A stretch of DNA of 49,628 nt. Origin: a virus. The first letter of the stretch is position 1, and each line of letters opens with the position of its first letter. Shown here piece after piece: positions 2,571 through 48,897 of this stretch. Made by a program: the position numbers and the translations under genes. The stretch is from positions 1 to 49,628 of the IMG/VR virus record IMGVR_UViG_3300046474_000104; one strand, 5' to 3'. A model generated the notes under the pieces. The model saw nothing but the letters and a program-made list of their open reading frames with translations, made no database searches and had not been told where the DNA came from.

Positions 2571-2673
2571 GTGTTGTAGGTCTCGGAAGGTTTAGAGACG
2601 CTCCGAGTCGTCTTGTAGCACCGGAGATTTGAGCATCGTTGAGAGGCTTACCGGTTTGGCGCTGGTTGTACGT

Positions 2674-10920: not shown

Positions 10921-12372
10921 CATATCCCCCACCGCGACCCGGTTGTTGTGAAGCATCTGAGAGATGGCGTCACACATCGGGTCGATCATGTCATCGTGAG
11001 CGTGCGTATCGTCAGCGGTGAACGCCTCACATTCCGTAATGAAATCGTGCACCCAGGGTGCGTCGGCGGGGATCTTCACGTACCCGGCTTCGATGTAACC
11101 CTGTACGTCCATCACACGCGTCAGCTTGTTTGAGGCTGGACCGCGTGGTATCGGGCGTACGGGGATCTTCGGCTTGATCACTTTCTGAATCTTCTGAATC
11201 AGTTCCGTACCTGACGACTTGTCCTCGACGGCCATGAATCGCAGGCGACCCGTGTGTGACGTCCTGTGCTTGTTCCAGAAGTCAGGGATACGCACCTCAA
11301 GCTCATACGCCTGGAACTTCTCACGCAGCACGTCGAGCAGGTATAGATACCCGTCATCGCCCAACCCCCAGCACTCGGCGACCTGATAGTCGTTATGCTG
11401 TTTCGCCTTCTGTGCGGTGTCGACGAATACGGCTCGCCACTTCAGCGGCGGTACGACGGTGTAACGTCCGAACCATTCGCCGCGCAGGATGCCGCCACCG
11501 AGCGGGGAGGGGCGTTGCTGCATCTGACTGGCGAACATGTACGAGTTCTTCGCCTTCATCGCCCTGAGCGCGTCCAGGGAGTGTTTCGAAGGCCACAATG
11601 CCGACTCGTGGTCGGTACCCTCATCGACGATTGCGCTCAGTACGAGATGACGGAATTTGTATTCACTGTCGCGCAGCAGCATCCCGCAAAAATCGTCTTC
11701 GTGAATCCGCTGCATGATCACGATGCACGGCGTCTTCGTGGAGTTGAAACGTGACTTGATCGTTTCGTCCCACCGACGGTTCACGGCCTTACGCATCGGA
11801 TCGGAGTAGGCGTCGTCGGGCTTGAGTGGGTCGTCGATGATGATCGCGCCGCCGAACCCGTTGTCACCCTCAAAGTCGTCGATCTTGCCCGCACCGAAGC
11901 CCGTGATAGGCCCACCAGCGGACGTTGCGTAGAACACACCGCCTTGCTCAGTCGCCCACGCCTTCTTGCTGTCCTTGTTCGACTTGATGGTCAGCTCGGG
12001 CCACAACTGAGCGAACTCAGCGGACTTCATGATCGTCTTGACCGTTTCGGAGTTATCCAGCGCCAGGATGTCAGCGTACGACAGGTGGATGAACTCACAC
12101 TTGGCGTTCTTCACGTAACACCACGCCACGAACATTTTCACCGCCAACTCGGTTTTCGAGTAGCGGGGCGGCATGTTGATGATCAGGTGGGTGGTGCGAC
12201 CCTCGTACACGTCCATCAACGCATCACAGATGACGTGATGGTGTTCGCTCAGTACGAATTTCGAACCCTTGACGACCTTGAAGAAGTACCGAACGAAGTA
12301 TTCGAAACTTTCCTCACAGGCCAGTCGGAGAAGAGTTGCGTCAGTAGCGTTGAGTTTATTAAAACGACTCAT
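10915..12372 (-). CDS. terL: Terminase large subunit
   Basis: The 485 residues contain an ATPase with a Walker A-like M-P-P-R-Y-S-K-T-E (67-75) and a Walker B A-I-I-I-D-D (176-181). A nuclease domain follows, with acidic residues at D318 (V-D-T-A), E383/D384 and H-D-D-M-I-D (459-464). TerL powers DNA packaging and cuts the concatemer. It overlaps the small subunit gene by 14 bp. The type fits headful or similar packaging, but the end type cannot be read from this protein alone. Confidence 0.93.
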   Translation of the reverse strand: MSRFNKLNATDATLLRLACEESFEYFVRYFFKVVKGSKFVLSEHHHVICDALMDVYEGRTTHLIINMPPRYSKTELAVKMFVAWCYVKNAKCEFIHLSYADILALDNSETVKTIMKSAEFAQLWPELTIKSNKDSKKAWATEQGGVFYATSAGGPITGFGAGKIDDFEGDNGFGGAIIIDDPLKPDDAYSDPMRKAVNRRWDETIKSRFNSTKTPCIVIMQRIHEDDFCGMLLRDSEYKFRHLVLSAIVDEGTDHESALWPSKHSLDALRAMKAKNSYMFASQMQQRPSPLGGGILRGEWFGRYTVVPPLKWRAVFVDTAQKAKQHNDYQVAECWGLGDDGYLYLLDVLREKFQAYELEVRIPDFWNKHRTSHTGRLRFMAVEDKSSGTELIQKIQKVIKPKIPVRPIPRGPASNKLTRVMDVQGYIEAGYVKIPADAPWVHDFITECEAFTADDTHAHDDMIDPMCDAISQMLHNNRVAVGDML

Positions 12373-13003
12373 TGAACGCTTTCTTAAAATCGAGGACTTG
12401 TTGGGGAGTTACGTTAGTTGCAACTGCACCAGTCACTTCAACTTGTTGGGGTTTATTATAACCTTGGAGTTCGGCAATCTGTTTCATTGCAGCGATCTGA
12501 CTATGGGTTTTAATTTTCAACCCGTCTTTACCAGCGGTAAGTTCGCTGATTAGTGCAGTACCTGCGCCAGTCATATCAGAAGTATCTTTGAAAGCCCAAC
12601 CAGCTTGCGCAACAACTTCACCCGTTTCTTCGTCGATGAGTGGGTTGTTATGCAGCGAGATAACATCGTCGATCTTGGTACGAGCGATAGAACTTAAACG
12701 CTCTAACATTTCCTCACGGGACATTACCGAACTTGCAAGTTTCGCAGCGCTCGATTCGATAAGTTCCGAACGGAAAGATTTGACGAAGGCGTCAACCATA
12801 CGATTGCTTACGATCTGACTGGCCGACCGATCCATCGCATTTTCCGTCTTCGCCTTACCACCAGCACGACGATACGCCTCACGCTGCGACAACCCTTCGA
12901 GTACCCCAAGCGCCACACCTTGCTGCAAACGAGTCAGGGCGTGGAATGCCGAGACCTGTCCGTCGCTCAGTTCGATGGTGCGGTTGTCGATGGTGATCAG
13001 CAT
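12359..13003 (-). CDS. terS: Terminase small subunit
   Basis: This 214-residue protein has an N-terminal helix-turn-helix (Q-G-V-A...G-L-S-Q-R-E-A-Y-R-R-A-G-G), a helical middle, and the A-R-T-K-I-D-D-V-I-S motif typical of small terminases. It recognises the packaging start site. The ATG at 13003 is chosen because the promoter at 13034-13062 would initiate near 13027, downstream of the longer frame's start. It overlaps terL by 14 bp. Confidence 0.85.
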   Translation of the reverse strand: MLITIDNRTIELSDGQVSAFHALTRLQQGVALGVLEGLSQREAYRRAGGKAKTENAMDRSASQIVSNRMVDAFVKSFRSELIESSAAKLASSVMSREEMLERLSSIARTKIDDVISLHNNPLIDEETGEVVAQAGWAFKDTSDMTGAGTALISELTAGKDGLKIKTHSQIAAMKQIAELQGYNKPQQVEVTGAVATNVTPQQVLDFKKAFNESF

Positions 13004-13033
13004 TGCGGAAAGCCTTGCGGTTGAGGTCACACG

Positions 13034-13062
13034 ATTGTCGCCGCCGCTGACAGGCGAGTCAA
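13034..13062 (-). promoter_or_regulatory. TTGAC-N6-GTCA promoter for the terminase operon
   Basis: On the minus strand TTGACT (13062-13057), 17-bp spacer, GACAAT (13039-13034). It shares the GACAAT box with the head-gene promoter at 3011-3039. The flank of the palindrome is more degenerate than in the cassette promoters. Confidence 0.7.
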
Positions 13063-13150
13063 TCTCAACGGGTCGTTACCCCGATAATCTGATCCGGGGT
13101 ATTTATCGGGGTATGTCGTAAGTCCTTGTATTTACTACTAATATATATTT

Positions 13151-13346
13151 TATACCCCGATACCCTTAATAAATAATATTAGTAGTAGAGTAGTAATGTA
13201 TATGAGAATACATATCATTATATATAATATCGTATGGCTGAAGAGTGAGATCGATACGGGGTATTCGGGTAAACCCGCTACAGGCCACGTAATCCGTGGC
13301 TTCCAGGCTACCCCGGATAGTTTGCGAGTTCCGGGGTACGGGGTAT
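13151..13346. repeat. Duplicated CGGGGTA-rich control element, copy A
   Basis: Three blocks are shared exactly, or with one change, with 48517-48704: 13151-13182 (32 bp identical), 13242-13272 (31 bp, one difference) and 13309-13346 (38 bp identical). Blocks 2 and 3 are separated by 36 bp in both copies. CGGGGTA/TACCCCG words recur in both orientations here and in the flanks (13074-13115, 13346-13360). A small hairpin (CCACG/CGTGG) lies between blocks 2 and 3. The element is upstream of the terminase operon. The 550-bp region 13004-13559 holds no credible gene. Confidence 0.85.
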
Positions 13347-13365
13347 ACCGGGGTACGAAATAAAT

Positions 13366-13535
13366 CATTTTTGAGCGAGATAATTTATTTTTAATTTTAT
13401 TTCACCCGAAAATGAGCCAAAAATAAATTACTGAAAATTAACTGACGTCGAGATAATTATAAATCGATTAAATTTTAACCAGATGTCAACCAAAAATAAT
13501 TAAAAGTCGACAGCGATAAATTACTGGAAATTAAA
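13366..13535. other. AT-rich noncoding tract
   Basis: This tract is much richer in A and T than its neighbours, with repeated words such as AAATAAATTACTG/GATAAATTACTGG and runs of AAAATAA. No ORF with a ribosome site is present. Together with the iteron-like element beside it, it could be a DNA-unwinding region. Confidence 0.5.
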
Positions 13536-13553
13536 AAACCCGCCGAAGCGGGT
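13533..13553 (-). terminator. Intrinsic terminator after gene 13560
   Basis: On the minus strand the ACCCGC/GCGGGT stem with a TTCG loop (13553-13538) is followed by six T residues. It ends the early minus-strand operon just before the noncoding region. Confidence 0.85.
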
Positions 13554-13559
13554 CGTGTG

Positions 13560-18834: not shown

Positions 18835-21234
18835 CTATCCTACCACCGCCTGACTCAACGCCGCAATCGCCACGGGGTCACCCTGCGCCGCCTCGTAATG
18901 ACGTACCACTTCAGCACCCCCAACCAGATTGGCGTGGATATGACCCTGGCGGATGTATAGGCGTGGCTTGCCGTTATCCATGAGGATGTGATTATTGACG
19001 CGACCATCTTTAAGCGCCGGGTGCCAGTCATAGCCGATGGACTTCATCAGGTCGCGACGTTTGCGTGGGGCGATGGCACGGCCCATGCGCAGCCGTTCGA
19101 TGAGTGCATCGAGTGCCATGCTTGACACCCAGCCGCCCGCGAACCCAGCGCGACCTTCCTCGATGCACTCCATTACCTCTTGTTCGACTGCGCCCAAGCT
19201 TGCCTCGACCGCTTCACCGGTGGTACTGGTGTATGGGGCGCGCTGACAACCCAACGTGGGATTGAACTCCACAGGGATCGCGTAGGTGCTGAGAAAATGC
19301 GCCACGTGGGCGTACCCATCACCACGCAGCCAATCGTACAGGTCGGGGAAATAGTTACCGCCCATACCGTCCCGGGTAATGTCGCCGACCTCTTGCTGAG
19401 CTGTGAACATCACACAGAACCGTCTATCGTTGAGGGTCTTTTTAATGGCGTTGCGGTGGTTACTATTGAAGATAAAATTTGCACAGTTTGCCATCATTAC
19501 CTGATCTTGTTGCATGGCACGTTTCGCCAGTCGATCACCCGTAATCATGGGTTTGAGCACTTCTAAAACTTCGACCTTCGAGTCAGGAACATAGATATCC
19601 TCGACTCCTACAAATATTGACCCGAATAGCCACGAGTTGAATTTCTCGCTGATCTCACTCGCCGGTGGCAAGTGGGTGTAACGCTGGCCGACGGCGTACG
19701 CGACGCAGCGGGTGATCAAGGTCTTACCGTTACCCTCGCAACCCTGGAACAACGGTGCCCATTGGAACTTGTGACCCGGATATTGCACGATAGCGGCGGC
19801 GTAACTCAGGGCAATTTGCCGGTCACGTTCGTTCGGCAGGATCTTGGCGAGATGTACCATGAACCGCGACACGTCGCCCGGAACCTTTCGCACGTTCACC
19901 GGTACATACGTGTTCACCATCCGCCGACCCTCGTCGTCGATGATCGCCCCAGGTGGGTGGCGTGGATCAAATACAGACCCGTCAACCTTGGGGAACATCA
20001 CACCCTGGTTCTCAGTGAACGCTTCGAACGCCTTTTTGGTCGTCTTTTCGCCCGTGTCGTCCAGGCTGAATGTGTAGCCGCCGAACATCGAGTTGAATTG
20101 TTCCGCCTTGAGCATCGTTCCGTTCGGGGTGAAGATACGGTGAGCATCGGCCACGTACACGCAGCCACGGAAGTGATCGACTACCTGGGTAATCGGCAGA
20201 AACTGGAATCCGGCACGGATGACCGGATCGACCACCGACGCCACAGGGGTCATTTCGATAGGTTTACCGACGCTGTACCACGACGTTTGGCGCCCCACAG
20301 CACGTGGAATCGTGCGGCGGATCAGGTATTCCGGGCGCTTGGTCCACTTGGCGCGTTTCAAGCCTGACATATGCATCAAGCGCAGAATTCGTTCGCAGTT
20401 GTTGCCGGTGTAGAATGCAAGGTGTTGAGCGAGGGCGAGGTCAGCCGCCGATGCGTCGTACTGCTCACCGCCCTGATCAGGTGGAAAAAATTCCAGCAGC
20501 TTATCGGCGTCAGCGGTCCACAGATCCCGGAAACTCGCCCTGGCGCCGAACTGGCTTGCGACTGATTCGGCTTTGAGCGCTTTCTCGATCAGTCGGGTAT
20601 CGTCCTCAATCGGATAACTACCCTCACAATGTGTTGTCGTCCACTCGCTACCGCCGACCGTCTCGGACGGGTCGAGTTTGAGCCACTTCTCGACGATATG
20701 ATCAAGCGCCGGTTGGTGAGTCGATGAACCCGCGTCACCCGTTGCACCGTTACCAGTCAGCGCGATGAACCGCTCGGTGCGGTACAGGTCGAACAGATCC
20801 GACTTGGAACCGGTGACAGGATCTTTCGCCTTGCACGCGTGGTCATCAATACCGACCCGTGGCGCACCACTGCCGATGATGTGGAGCCCCGACCCGGACT
20901 GTGACACCTCGACGGCGGCACCTGCGAATAATTGACACAGTTCGACCGCAATGGGTGACCATGTCGAGCCTGACAGGCAGTTATCGATATCAATAAAGAA
21001 AAATGGGTCGTCGTCGGTCAGTACGAAACCCACACCCCACGACTCACCCAGGGCGGCGGCGGCGGCGCAAGCAACGTCAGGGGTAACCCAGTGTGTGGAG
21101 TCGTGAGCGTTGATAACTTTACCGGACGTGTTACACGGCTGTTTGAGGGTCTTCGCGCCGTTTGGAATCAGGTGATACAGAATAAATTGGGCGTAGGAGG
21201 CCATGGCCCCCAGCGCGGGAGGTAATACTTGCAT
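18835..21234 (-). CDS. PrimPol-SF3 helicase replication protein, 799 aa
   Basis: The N-terminal ~300 residues are an archaeo-eukaryotic primase/PrimPol-like domain: F-F-F-I-D-I-D-N puts the metal-binding Asp pair at 82 and 84, and S-G-S-G-L-H (112-118) carries the conserved His. The C-terminal half is a D5/SF3 helicase with Walker A G-C-E-G-N-G-K-T (498-505) and downstream N-S-N-H-R. It should prime and unwind at the fork. It lies on the strand opposite the DNA polymerase. The start at 21234 is likely; an ATG ten codons in is possible. Confidence 0.88.
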   Translation of the reverse strand: MQVLPPALGAMASYAQFILYHLIPNGAKTLKQPCNTSGKVINAHDSTHWVTPDVACAAAAALGESWGVGFVLTDDDPFFFIDIDNCLSGSTWSPIAVELCQLFAGAAVEVSQSGSGLHIIGSGAPRVGIDDHACKAKDPVTGSKSDLFDLYRTERFIALTGNGATGDAGSSTHQPALDHIVEKWLKLDPSETVGGSEWTTTHCEGSYPIEDDTRLIEKALKAESVASQFGARASFRDLWTADADKLLEFFPPDQGGEQYDASAADLALAQHLAFYTGNNCERILRLMHMSGLKRAKWTKRPEYLIRRTIPRAVGRQTSWYSVGKPIEMTPVASVVDPVIRAGFQFLPITQVVDHFRGCVYVADAHRIFTPNGTMLKAEQFNSMFGGYTFSLDDTGEKTTKKAFEAFTENQGVMFPKVDGSVFDPRHPPGAIIDDEGRRMVNTYVPVNVRKVPGDVSRFMVHLAKILPNERDRQIALSYAAAIVQYPGHKFQWAPLFQGCEGNGKTLITRCVAYAVGQRYTHLPPASEISEKFNSWLFGSIFVGVEDIYVPDSKVEVLEVLKPMITGDRLAKRAMQQDQVMMANCANFIFNSNHRNAIKKTLNDRRFCVMFTAQQEVGDITRDGMGGNYFPDLYDWLRGDGYAHVAHFLSTYAIPVEFNPTLGCQRAPYTSTTGEAVEASLGAVEQEVMECIEEGRAGFAGGWVSSMALDALIERLRMGRAIAPRKRRDLMKSIGYDWHPALKDGRVNNHILMDNGKPRLYIRQGHIHANLVGGAEVVRHYEAAQGDPVAIAALSQAVVG

Positions 21235-30682: not shown

Positions 30683-30693
30683 TGGGTGACACT
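30665..30693 (+). promoter_or_regulatory. TTGAC-N6-GTCA promoter for the ParB/PAPS-reductase-like cassette
   Basis: TTGACG (30665-30670), 17-bp spacer, GACACT (30688-30693). It overlaps the end of the polymerase gene. Confidence 0.78.
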
Positions 30694-30718
30694 GGTCCGA
30701 CACAACGGGAGATACACC

Positions 30719-31372
30719 ATGCAAGATTTTGAATACCTCGCAGACCTACCACTTGACGAACGTGTTGCCGAAATTAACCGGTTGCGCGCACTGATCCACG
30801 AGTACAGCCCGTTCAAATCTGAACCGATTGACTTCGTGCGCTGGGTGCCGACTGACAGCGTGTACGCCAACGACTACAACCCGAACAGCGTGGCACCACC
30901 TGAAATGGCATTGCTCGAGCATTCCATCGATCACGACGGGTTCACGCAGCCGGTGGTGGGTTGGCTCGGTGAGGACGACATGTATGAGGTGGTCGACGGG
31001 TTCCACCGTACGACCGTGGCTAAACGTTCAACCAGTGTGATGCTGCGCCTACAGGGTTTCATGCCCATCGTGGCGATCCAGACGAAGAACACCGAACGCA
31101 ATGACCGTGTGGCTTCGACCATCCGCCACAACCGTGCACGTGGTAAACACAACGTCGAGTCGATGTCTGACATCGTGATCGAATTGAAGAAACGTAATTG
31201 GTCTGACGAGCGCGTTGCTAAGGAGCTGGGTATGGACCCGGACGAAGTGCTGCGTCTGTGCCAGGTGTCCGGTCTGGTCGAAGTGTTCGCCGACGAAGAA
31301 TTTTCGACCGCATGGGACGCTGCGATTTTCAGTGACGAGGAACTCGACCAGATTGAAGAGGCGGATCTGTAA
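30719..31372 (+). CDS. ParB/IbrB-like nuclease-fold protein, 217 aa
   Basis: The ATG at 30719 has CGGGAGA upstream. The ParB-like fold is seen as W-V-P-T-D-S-V, N-D-Y-N-P-N, L-x-x-S-I-x-x-D-G-F-T-Q-P-V-V, and V-V-D-G-F-H-R (91-97). A C-terminal helix-turn-helix-like part follows (D-E-R-V-A-K-E-L-G-M-D-P-D-E-V). ParB-like proteins of the IbrB type occur next to PAPS-reductase-like IbrA in E. coli and in phages. The biochemical role is not established. It is the first of three coupled genes. Confidence 0.8.
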   Translation: MQDFEYLADLPLDERVAEINRLRALIHEYSPFKSEPIDFVRWVPTDSVYANDYNPNSVAPPEMALLEHSIDHDGFTQPVVGWLGEDDMYEVVDGFHRTTVAKRSTSVMLRLQGFMPIVAIQTKNTERNDRVASTIRHNRARGKHNVESMSDIVIELKKRNWSDERVAKELGMDPDEVLRLCQVSGLVEVFADEEFSTAWDAAIFSDEELDQIEEADL

Positions 31373-31804: not shown

Positions 31805-33013
31805 ATGGAACTTAAAAAATACCTGGACATCAACGTCCTGACCGCCGCCCGTGAGCGGATCGCGTACACGTTCGATCACTTTGAAAACATTTTCATCAGC
31901 TTCAGCGGTGGTAAAGACTCATCGGTCATGTTCCATCTGGTGATGGACGAGGCGATCAAGCGTAACCGGGTGGTCGGCGTGATGTTGATCGACTTCGAGG
32001 CGCAGTACAAACGCACATCGGAACACGCAGATGAAATGTTCGAGCGTTACGCCGATAACATCGACCTGCATTGGATCTGTTTACCGATCAAACTGCGCAA
32101 CGCATCGAGCAACTTCGAACCCGTGTGGACTTGCTGGGACCCTGAGCGTAAGGCCGACTGGGTTCGCCCGATGCCGACGCGCCCTGGCGTAATCAGTGAC
32201 CCGGCGCAACTTCCTTGGTTCCAACCAAACATGGAGTTCGAGGAGTTTATCGTTCTGTTCGCCGAGTGGTACGGTGGCGACAAACCCACTGCGGCATTCG
32301 TGGGTATCCGTTGCGATGAAAGTTTGAACCGTTTCCGGACGATTGCCATTTTCAACAAGGGTACTCACGGCGGGAACCGTTGGACGACTGAAGTGATGAA
32401 AGACGTTTATAACGTGTACCCGATTTACGACTGGCGCACTCAGGACATCTGGATCTATCACGCCAAGAATCCCGACCGCGAACACAACGTCATTTACGAC
32501 CTGATGCATCAGGCGGGTGTCAAGCCGTCACAGCAGCGCCTGTGCCAGCCGTACGGCGATGATCAGCGTCGCGGCCTGTGGCTTTACCATATCCTCGAAC
32601 CCGAGACGTGGTATCGCGTTGTCGCCCGCGTGAACGGTGCCAATAGTGCGGCGCTGTACGTCCAGGAGACGGGAAACATCATGGGGTACAACAAGATCAC
32701 GCTGCCCGAGGGTCACACTTACAAGTCGTTCTGCAACCTGTTACTCGCGACCATGCCGAAGGTGACCCGGGAACACTTCATCCCACGATTCAAAGTGTTC
32801 CTACGTGGATGGAAGGGGCGTGGGTATGTGGATGGTATTCCGGACTTCGCACCCAAGGTACTCGAGGACAAGCAATGGGCGCCAAGCTGGCGCCGACTAT
32901 GTAAGGTGCTGTTGCGCAATGATTGGTGGTGCAAGGGGTTGGGTATGACACAGCCGAAGTCTGAGGCGTACGGGCGATACCTCGTCATGCGCAAAGAGAA
33001 GAAAGGTCGGTAA
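31805..33013 (+). CDS. PAPS reductase / IbrA-like PP-loop protein, 402 aa
   Basis: The PP-loop S-G-G-K-D-S-S (34-40) marks the ATP-pyrophosphatase fold of CysH, DndC and DUF3440 IbrA-like proteins. Other conserved-looking parts are D-F-E-A-Q-Y, C-W-D-P-E, Y-P-I-Y-D-W-R-T-Q-D-I-W and Q-Q-R-L-C-Q-P-Y. CysH-type sulfate reduction is unlikely in a phage; sulfur or other nucleophile activation for nucleic-acid modification, or anti-defence, is suggested by analogy with DndC, and is inference. Confidence 0.82.
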   Translation: MELKKYLDINVLTAARERIAYTFDHFENIFISFSGGKDSSVMFHLVMDEAIKRNRVVGVMLIDFEAQYKRTSEHADEMFERYADNIDLHWICLPIKLRNASSNFEPVWTCWDPERKADWVRPMPTRPGVISDPAQLPWFQPNMEFEEFIVLFAEWYGGDKPTAAFVGIRCDESLNRFRTIAIFNKGTHGGNRWTTEVMKDVYNVYPIYDWRTQDIWIYHAKNPDREHNVIYDLMHQAGVKPSQQRLCQPYGDDQRRGLWLYHILEPETWYRVVARVNGANSAALYVQETGNIMGYNKITLPEGHTYKSFCNLLLATMPKVTREHFIPRFKVFLRGWKGRGYVDGIPDFAPKVLEDKQWAPSWRRLCKVLLRNDWWCKGLGMTQPKSEAYGRYLVMRKEKKGR

Positions 33014-47920: not shown

Positions 47921-48403
47921 TTACAACCCCTCTGTCGGTTTTTCGTCGGTGACTGTGGACGTGACAGAGGCGCGCATTCTGCCGGTGTCGATAAGGGGGT
48001 TATCCGATCCCTTCTTGGCGATTGTATACGGTGCGTTCGGCGGTGTCTTTAGGTCCGTGATGTACTGCTGAGTCGCCCCCGCCGCCAGGATACCGACACC
48101 CTCGATCACAGTGTCAAGGTTTGCACCTTTGCCGATCTGGTCGCGGACGTAATCGATCACATCGATAGTGCCCGATTGTACCCCTACGTCGAGCCAGGGG
48201 CGTGCGGGAATCTTAGGGGGTCCATCAGTACCGAAGTGCTGAAGCGCGCCGAGTTCAGCCTCGGTCATCTGTTCACCTTCGACTTTTCCAGCATCCTCAT
48301 GAATCCCGACGAGCGCGTACTTGCCTCCGCGAAACTTTTTCAGTTCCGTTTTCAGCGTGTCGACGGCCCGTTGGAAATCAACGGTTTTCAGTGAGATAGC
48401 CAT
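47921..48403 (-). CDS. Neck/tail-completion protein, 160 aa
   Basis: The pattern K-Y-A-L-V-G-I-H-E...A-E-L-G-A-L-Q-H-F-G...I-P-A-R-P-W-L...D-T-G-R-M-R-A-S is that of HK97 gp10/Mu-type tail-completion proteins. It leads the tail block. No convincing ribosome site precedes the ATG, and the -10 of the candidate promoter is 7 bp upstream, so a leaderless mRNA is possible. Confidence 0.75.
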   Translation of the reverse strand: MAISLKTVDFQRAVDTLKTELKKFRGGKYALVGIHEDAGKVEGEQMTEAELGALQHFGTDGPPKIPARPWLDVGVQSGTIDVIDYVRDQIGKGANLDTVIEGVGILAAGATQQYITDLKTPPNAPYTIAKKGSDNPLIDTGRMRASVTSTVTDEKPTEGL

Positions 48404-48410
48404 GAGTCGG

Positions 48411-48437
48411 ATAATACCACAATGGTTGTCGTGACAA
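48411..48437 (-). promoter_or_regulatory. Candidate promoter for the tail operon
   Basis: On the minus strand an extended -10 (TGG-TATTAT, 48416-48411) follows TTGTCA (48437-48432) with a short 15-bp spacer. The predicted start is at or next to the ATG at 48403. It lies downstream of the copy B element, which may supply activation. Confidence 0.45.
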
Positions 48438-48516
48438 TCCTTACCCCGGTAATTCTATACGGGGTAGACATTCGGGGTATCGCTGAGAGTGCCGGAATAG
48501 ACACCTCCTTTTATTC

Positions 48517-48704
48517 TATACCCCGATACCCTTAATAAATAATATTAGAATAGGAATGATACATATGTAATACAGTAACAGTATATAGCCAGCGGCGTGA
48601 GAGTGAGATCGATGCGGGGTATTCGGGTAACACCCCTCAAACCCGCGAGCTAGAGCGCTAGAATCGTACCCCGGATAGTTTGCGAGTTCCGGGGTACGGG
48701 GTAT
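48517..48704. repeat. Duplicated CGGGGTA-rich control element, copy B
   Basis: Blocks 48517-48548, 48600-48630 and 48667-48704 match copy A (13151-13182, 13242-13272, 13309-13346) exactly or with one change. The intervals are 51 and 36 bp (59 and 36 in copy A); interval sequences differ, but both have a hairpin-like stretch in the second interval. TACCCCG/CGGGGTA words also occur at 48445-48480. Both copies have the same orientation and lie upstream of a minus-strand structural operon. The 570-bp region 48404-48973 holds no credible gene. Confidence 0.85.
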
Positions 48705-48868
48705 GGTTTCAGCACCGGTAAGCCTGGAAAAGACATCCTGTGACCGTAGTGCGCTATTTAGTCACGCATCGACTCGTCGGTCACCTTCATTTCCGTGACC
48801 AGAAAATTACACTGGACGTTTCGTGACTATATTTAGCAGCCTGGTCATTCCCCATCCGACGAACGGCT

Positions 48869-48897
48869 TTGACGAACCCGTCATTTGAGTCATACTT
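48869..48897 (+). promoter_or_regulatory. TTGAC-N6-GTCA promoter for gene 48974
   Basis: TTGACG (48869-48874), 17-bp spacer, ATACTT (48892-48897); CATACT at 16 bp is an alternative -10. It drives the first gene of the cassette that crosses the window ends. Confidence 0.72.

Follow-up and report, generated by a model that had tools for sequence, protein, structure and literature searches.

What is the role of a repeat-rich element that occurs twice in a phage genome, each time in front of a block of virion genes? We addressed this question in a stretch of 49,628 nt (hereafter, the window), which is a whole IMG/VR record; its ends repeat 127 bases, giving a genome of about 49,501 bp that is circular as assembled. 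The two copies, A and B, are 14.1 kb apart. Our best reading is that the element is a DNA control region at the boundary between early and late genes. Each copy probably controls the adjacent late operon and would be activated by an early-made phage protein that binds its iterons.

Two copies of a symmetric iteron element share blocks and spacing

The first-pass annotation of this DNA described three blocks of 32, 31, and 38 bp conserved between the two copies, and exact coordinates confirmed them (Table 1). Block 1 matches exactly over 32 bp, block 2 over 31 bp with one mismatch (14 + 16 exact), and block 3 exactly over 38 bp (13309-13346 and 48667-48704). The 36-bp spacing between blocks 2 and 3, reported to be constant despite differing bases, is indeed equal in both copies; the distance between blocks 1 and 2 varies (59 bp in copy A versus 51 bp in copy B). 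The start point given for the element, however, left out an extra conserved block, here block 0, and both copies begin earlier. With block 0 included, copy B extends over about 48441-48704. Block 0 is located on the side of the element nearer the late gene and is built of three words: TACCCCG, 11 nt, CGGGGTA, 5-6 nt, CGGGGTA.

The recurrence of CGGGGTA/TACCCCG words also held up. The whole window contains 21, compared to a mean of 5.2 and a largest count of 11 in 100 shuffles. Nine are in copy A (13077-13355), eight in copy B (48442-48703), and four are scattered elsewhere in the window. The result is a symmetric element of ∼280 bp with an AT-rich centre, in which the offsets between words are kept: 18-19 and then 12-13 bp in block 0, 8-9 bp in block 1, and 50-52 bp from block 2 to block 3. 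The tandem GGGTA pair of block 1, with its offset of 8-9, is found in nearly all relatives. An offset of 50-52 bp, about five helical turns, across a spacer of free sequence points to proteins bound on one face of the DNA.

Table 1. Positions of the element, its neighbors, and the candidate binding proteins in the window
Feature	Position	Strand	Details
terS, first gene of head operon	12359..13004	-	phrog_51, PF03592
Predicted late promoter, copy A	13034..13062	-	-35 TTGACT 13057-13062, 17 nt, -10 GACAAT 13034-13039
Copy A block 0	13077..13113		iterons 13077-13083(-), 13095-13101(+), 13107-13113(+)
Copy A block 1	13151..13182		tandem TACCCCGATACCC (offset 8) in AT-rich DNA, flanked by TACTACTA/TAGTAGTA arms
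AT-rich centre, copy A	13183..13241		from sequence
Copy A block 2	13242..13272		iteron 13257-13263(+)
Copy A spacer, free sequence, 36 bp	13273..13308		iteron-to-iteron offset 52 bp
Copy A block 3	13309..13355		iterons 13309-13315(-), 13332-13338(+), 13339-13345(+), 13349-13355(+)
Intrinsic terminator of early minus-strand gene right of copy A	13537..13554	-	
NrS-1-type primase-helicase	18835..21234	-	candidate initiator if the element is an origin; alternative candidate binder
94-aa protein with TetR_N helix-turn-helix	21273..21554	-	PF00440; candidate iteron binder
Neck/tail-completion gene, first gene of tail operon	47921..48403	-	phrog_222
Predicted late promoter, copy B	48411..48437	-	TTGTCA 48432-48437, 15 nt, extended -10 TGG-TATTAT 48411-48419
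Copy B block 0	48442..48479		iterons 48442-48448(-), 48460-48466(+), 48473-48479(+)
Copy B block 1	48517..48548		shared with copy A
Copy B block 2	48600..48630		iteron 48615-48621(+)
Copy B block 3	48667..48704		iterons 48667-48673(-), 48690-48696(+), 48697-48703(+)
Predicted early promoter of divergent gene right of copy B	48869..48896	+	TTGACG-16-CATACT

Both copies are located immediately ahead of late operons

Downstream of copy A come terS, terL, the portal gene, and the head genes; downstream of copy B come the neck and tail genes. The two late operons are on the minus strand, with terS and the neck gene as their first genes, so the earlier observation that the copies share one orientation and precede minus-strand virion operons stands. 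The gene to the right of copy B is a divergent plus-strand gene. On the right of copy A, a terminator (13554-13537) lies between an early gene and the element, and terS therefore needs a promoter between this terminator and 13030. Given that copy A occupies the interval between terminator and terS, and that the gap between terS and the divergent gene is 410 bp in Klebsiella phage JD001, a late promoter is expected in or beside the element.

The position of copy A next to terS had raised the idea of a pac site, the target of the small terminase subunit. In favor of this idea, headful packaging has been reported for the TerL group of these phages (PMC10269795), and the first base of some records falls within copy A. 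However, a record start inside copy A can be a convention, and copy B, with the same build, is located 14 kb away before the neck gene and without terS alongside. A pac site thus fits poorly, and we consider it very unlikely.

Other features of the window were recorded along the way. The DNA between copy A and the early terminator (13358-13537) is AT rich and contains repeats (ATAAATTACTGAAAATTAA and others). The early plus-strand operon encodes a ParB-like protein (30686-31372, +) and includes a PAPS-reductase-like gene (31805-33013, +). Positions 2619-2655 (-) match the Rfam abiF RNA with 47.9 bits (gathering threshold, 37), with no AbiF-type protein recognised alongside.

The element keeps its place among related phages

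Phages that carry the element are small, lytic, contractile-tailed phages (myophages). An exact 30-bp core was found in 14 stretches on 13 IMG/VR contigs, one of them with both copies, and was absent from all GTDB (bacterial) genome contigs searched. JD001 has the element before terS and before the neck gene, and its two copies are 96% identical. With JD001 as the query, we found 160 places in 71 phage records (Klebsiella Jedunavirus), about two copies each; third copies in some records were ruled out, since each third place checked was copy A divided by the ends of the record. Copies before both terS and the neck gene are present in the window, JD001, KpV52, KpV79, KsaM-C1, Edwardsiella phage MSW-3, and the IMG/VR contigs G005 to G007. 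In Shewanella phage SppYZU01, CKB-S1, SFCi1, and PD0307, the single late block begins with one main cluster, made of words particular to each phage (for example, GGTGCAC in SFCi1 and GGGGCAC in CKB-S1). No such words were found ahead of terS in PhiPLPE. CP-T1 and CASP1 were at first read as free of the element, a reading that we rejected: CP-T1 has nested inverted repeats of its own at the same place before terS (L035:17320-17830), a 26-bp pair spanning 286 bp, nearly the extent of copy A, and a 20-bp pair spanning 119 bp. A 17-bp inverted pair occurs in G007. The first-pass annotation had named blocks that were missing from relatives, or that did not front their late operons, as evidence against its idea; in every relative examined that has the element, it fronts late operons.

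Could the element be a mobile or merely duplicated repeat with no function? In several lineages, the copies within one genome are more alike than the copies of different genera, and for the window, G005, and G007, copy A matches its partner copy B better than it matches the copy A of any other genus. In every two-copy genome, however, the element sits at these two sites, and its conservation is found mainly at the iterons and in the promoter spacing. No repeat of this kind was found elsewhere in the window. We regard a functionless repeat as extremely improbable; the likeness of copies A and B would fit either concerted change or coadaptation to one protein.

Predicted late promoters lie at a fixed distance from the outermost iteron

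In several lineages, the best late-promoter candidate, located in the DNA that separates block 0 from the gene, has an extended -10 (TGn followed by TAAAAT, GATAAT, TATTAT, TATCAT, or GACAAT), and the spacing between this late-strand -10 and the outermost word is fixed. Measured from 5' base to 5' base, the distance is 32 bp in Jedunavirus copies A and B and in copy B of the window, the IMG/VR contig G003, and the Erwinia phage, 30 bp in SppYZU01, and 33 and 34 bp in copies A and B of KsaM-C1, respectively. These spacings hold despite differing leader sequences. A TGn extended -10 at +30 to +34 was present in 7 of 9 representative leaders versus 0 of 20,000 shuffles, although the true strength of this comparison is lower, because we picked the range after inspecting the data and because the leaders of Jedunavirus copies A and B start with the same bases. 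An offset scan gave a single peak, at the same distance. At a spacing of 30-34 bp, the word would be centred near -41 of the predicted late start.

In the window, the score of the copy B promoter was reached in 0 of 60 shuffles; its start is predicted at about 48404, which puts the outermost iteron between about -38 and -44. The copy A promoter has 9 of 12 consensus matches and no extended -10, and alone it scores no better than shuffles. Its predicted start is near 13027, with the terS ATG at 13004 and the outermost iteron centred near -53. Relatives of copy A of the window have TTGAC(T/C)-17-GACAAT; in these, the -35 lies 10-11 or 20-21 bp below the word, and the two classes of distance from word to -10, 33-34 and 43-44 bp, differ by one helical turn. 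There is no TG at the -10 of G005 copy B and no clear -10 at the distance in G007 copy B, and no late promoter was pinned down in MSW-3, PD0307, CKB-S1, or SFCi1. The annotators of KpV52 and KpV79 likewise predicted late-strand promoters within the element. A late promoter within block 1 (tandem GGGTA plus a TATA-like run) was rejected; its -10 is not common to all lineages. The copy B promoter, if right, would put the start of the neck mRNA at or next to the ATG (window 48401-48419), making it leaderless; the neck gene has no preceding Shine-Dalgarno sequence, and an Erwinia phage relative appears to be alike.

The first-pass annotation left a choice between protein binding and RNA structure. 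Can the element be an RNA structure in the late leader, such as a nut/put-type antitermination site or a riboregulator? Inverted iteron pairs can form hairpins (for example, TACCCCGGA...TTCCGGGGTA), and put and nut sites are also duplicated ahead of two operons. However, the predicted late starts are located between the element and the gene, which would place the element outside the late transcript, and the spacing is kept while the spacer sequence is free. With the element predicted to sit upstream of that transcript, a constant spacing across variable bases is better explained by a DNA-bound protein than by RNA structure; the protein half of the earlier proposal is thus the part we retain. 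A search of Rfam returned no family match to the element. We judge an RNA leader to be a highly unlikely explanation.

Predicted early promoters face outward on the far side of the element in most lineages

On the side away from the late gene, a TTGAC begins 15-17 bp past the last iteron-like word in Jedunavirus, KsaM-C1, G005, G006, the Erwinia phage, and CKB-S1. This early-side hexamer is near consensus in most lineages, often beyond the expectation from shuffles. The predicted promoter of the divergent gene right of copy B does not by its score alone rise above shuffles, and the early arm is absent from copy A of the window. We had considered the divergent gene as the reason for block 3 and dropped this idea, as copy A of the window keeps block 3 without an early gene. 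Several GTGAC/GTCAC words occur between copy B and the divergent early promoter (window 48735-48860), and also in L001 and L004; perhaps they are a second set of operators.

A proposed mechanism for late-operon control

From the architecture of the element, its position, its regular spacings, and its pairing within genomes, we infer binding, activation, timing, and looping as follows. A phage DNA-binding protein, made early, would recognise the CGGGGTA iterons. Bound at the outermost iteron, beside the -35 zone or one helical turn above it, the protein would bring the host RNA polymerase to a late promoter that is weak by itself, either with an extended -10 and a poor -35 or with a poor -10. 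Cooperation or looping by the same protein may be made possible by the inner iterons, which flank the AT-rich centre in helical register. With a strong outward early promoter on the far side in most relatives, the element could act as a divergent early/late switch. Two late operons would call for two copies, kept alike through serving one protein. A late activator site had been the first guess for this locus, and the position before the late operons and the fixed-distance late promoter make it the best-supported reading, with activation itself inferred.

Which protein might bind the iterons? One candidate is the TetR_N protein, which was found in 97 phage records, in 7 of 7 IMG/VR contigs tested, and in every two-copy genome examined for it. 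It is also present in PhiPLPE, which is without such words, and its presence is therefore no proof of iteron binding. A comparison of its recognition helix with the iteron sequence gave no clear correspondence across the lineages compared. The PD0307 paper treated its homologue as an antibiotic-resistance auxiliary gene (PMC10132091); its conservation beside replication genes suggests instead that it is a phage regulator.

The element offers exact sites for study: two promoters, one word, and one or two candidate proteins. Across genera, its architecture persists although the recognition word changes, and this would allow the study of coordinated change in regulator and site. The phages that carry it include many Klebsiella phage isolates studied for phage therapy.

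A possible role in replication

A symmetric element of ∼280 bp with an AT-rich centre exceeds the needs of a simple activator site. Are the copies instead paired replication origins, of the SPP1 oriL/oriR or P4 ori/crr type? The AT-rich centre would then be melted by an initiator bound to the iterons, for which the NrS-1-type primase-helicase is a candidate. As in replication origins, and as the first-pass annotation pointed out, the iterons adjoin an AT-rich region. They surround it with dyad symmetry, and CP-T1 and G007 have inverted repeats. The early operon that includes the primase gene borders the element in PD0307, CKB-S1, and SFCi1. The two origins of SPP1 are separated by about 13 kb and consist of repeats and an AT-rich unwinding element; oriR, along with moron genes, splits the late block of that phage (PMC6316719). 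The distance between copies A and B and the interruption of the late block by copy B parallel this arrangement. On the other hand, GC-skew extremes are located near the early divergent promoter and 3-4 kb short of copy A in most of 11 genomes, and none is found at copy B, although GC skew is a weak proxy for origins because gene strand dominates it. An origin alone would also have no need for a fixed distance to a late -10. We consider an origin role the main rival to late-operon control, unlikely but deserving of weight, and the two roles are compatible and can coexist.

A combined form, in which each of the two copies is an origin with divergent early and late promoters and a single protein bound to the iterons initiates replication and also turns on the late promoters, also seems to us rather unlikely. 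If it were true, late expression would follow genome copying, and the iteron word and the protein would change together across genera.

Comparison with known systems

Among the open papers searched, we found no description of the element or of the mode of late-gene switching in these myophages; on that coverage, its novelty is provisional. Comeau 2012 lists other repeats and not this element, and a keyword search of the papers on HHU1, KpV79, MMNM, PD0307, and the Bordetella avium phage found it unmentioned.

Four known arrangements resemble the element in part. The SV40-type origin is flanked by early and late promoters; the likeness, an analogy only, is that of a symmetric, repeat-rich region with early and late promoters pointing outward on its two sides, whereas here there is no kinship, two copies are present, and the origin role is putative. 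P4 has ori and crr with the alpha primase-helicase, and the likeness consists of two iteron-bearing sites per genome and a primase-helicase as candidate binder; in contrast, the primase here is NrS-1-like, and its binding to the sites is putative. With SPP1 oriL/oriR the window shares two like elements of repeats and AT-rich DNA, one of which sits within the late block alongside moron genes, but here a late promoter is located at a fixed distance, skew gives no support, and the initiator is only a candidate. Lambda CII, P2 Ogr, and Mu C act at class II activator-dependent sigma-70 phage promoters. The element differs from these in its many iterons in two orientations, its 280-bp symmetric extent with an AT-rich centre, a binder that is only a candidate, and the opposed early promoter of most relatives. 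It resembles them in that the putative activator site falls on or beside the -35 zone of a promoter whose -35 is weak and, as we propose here, in several operons being served by one phage activator.
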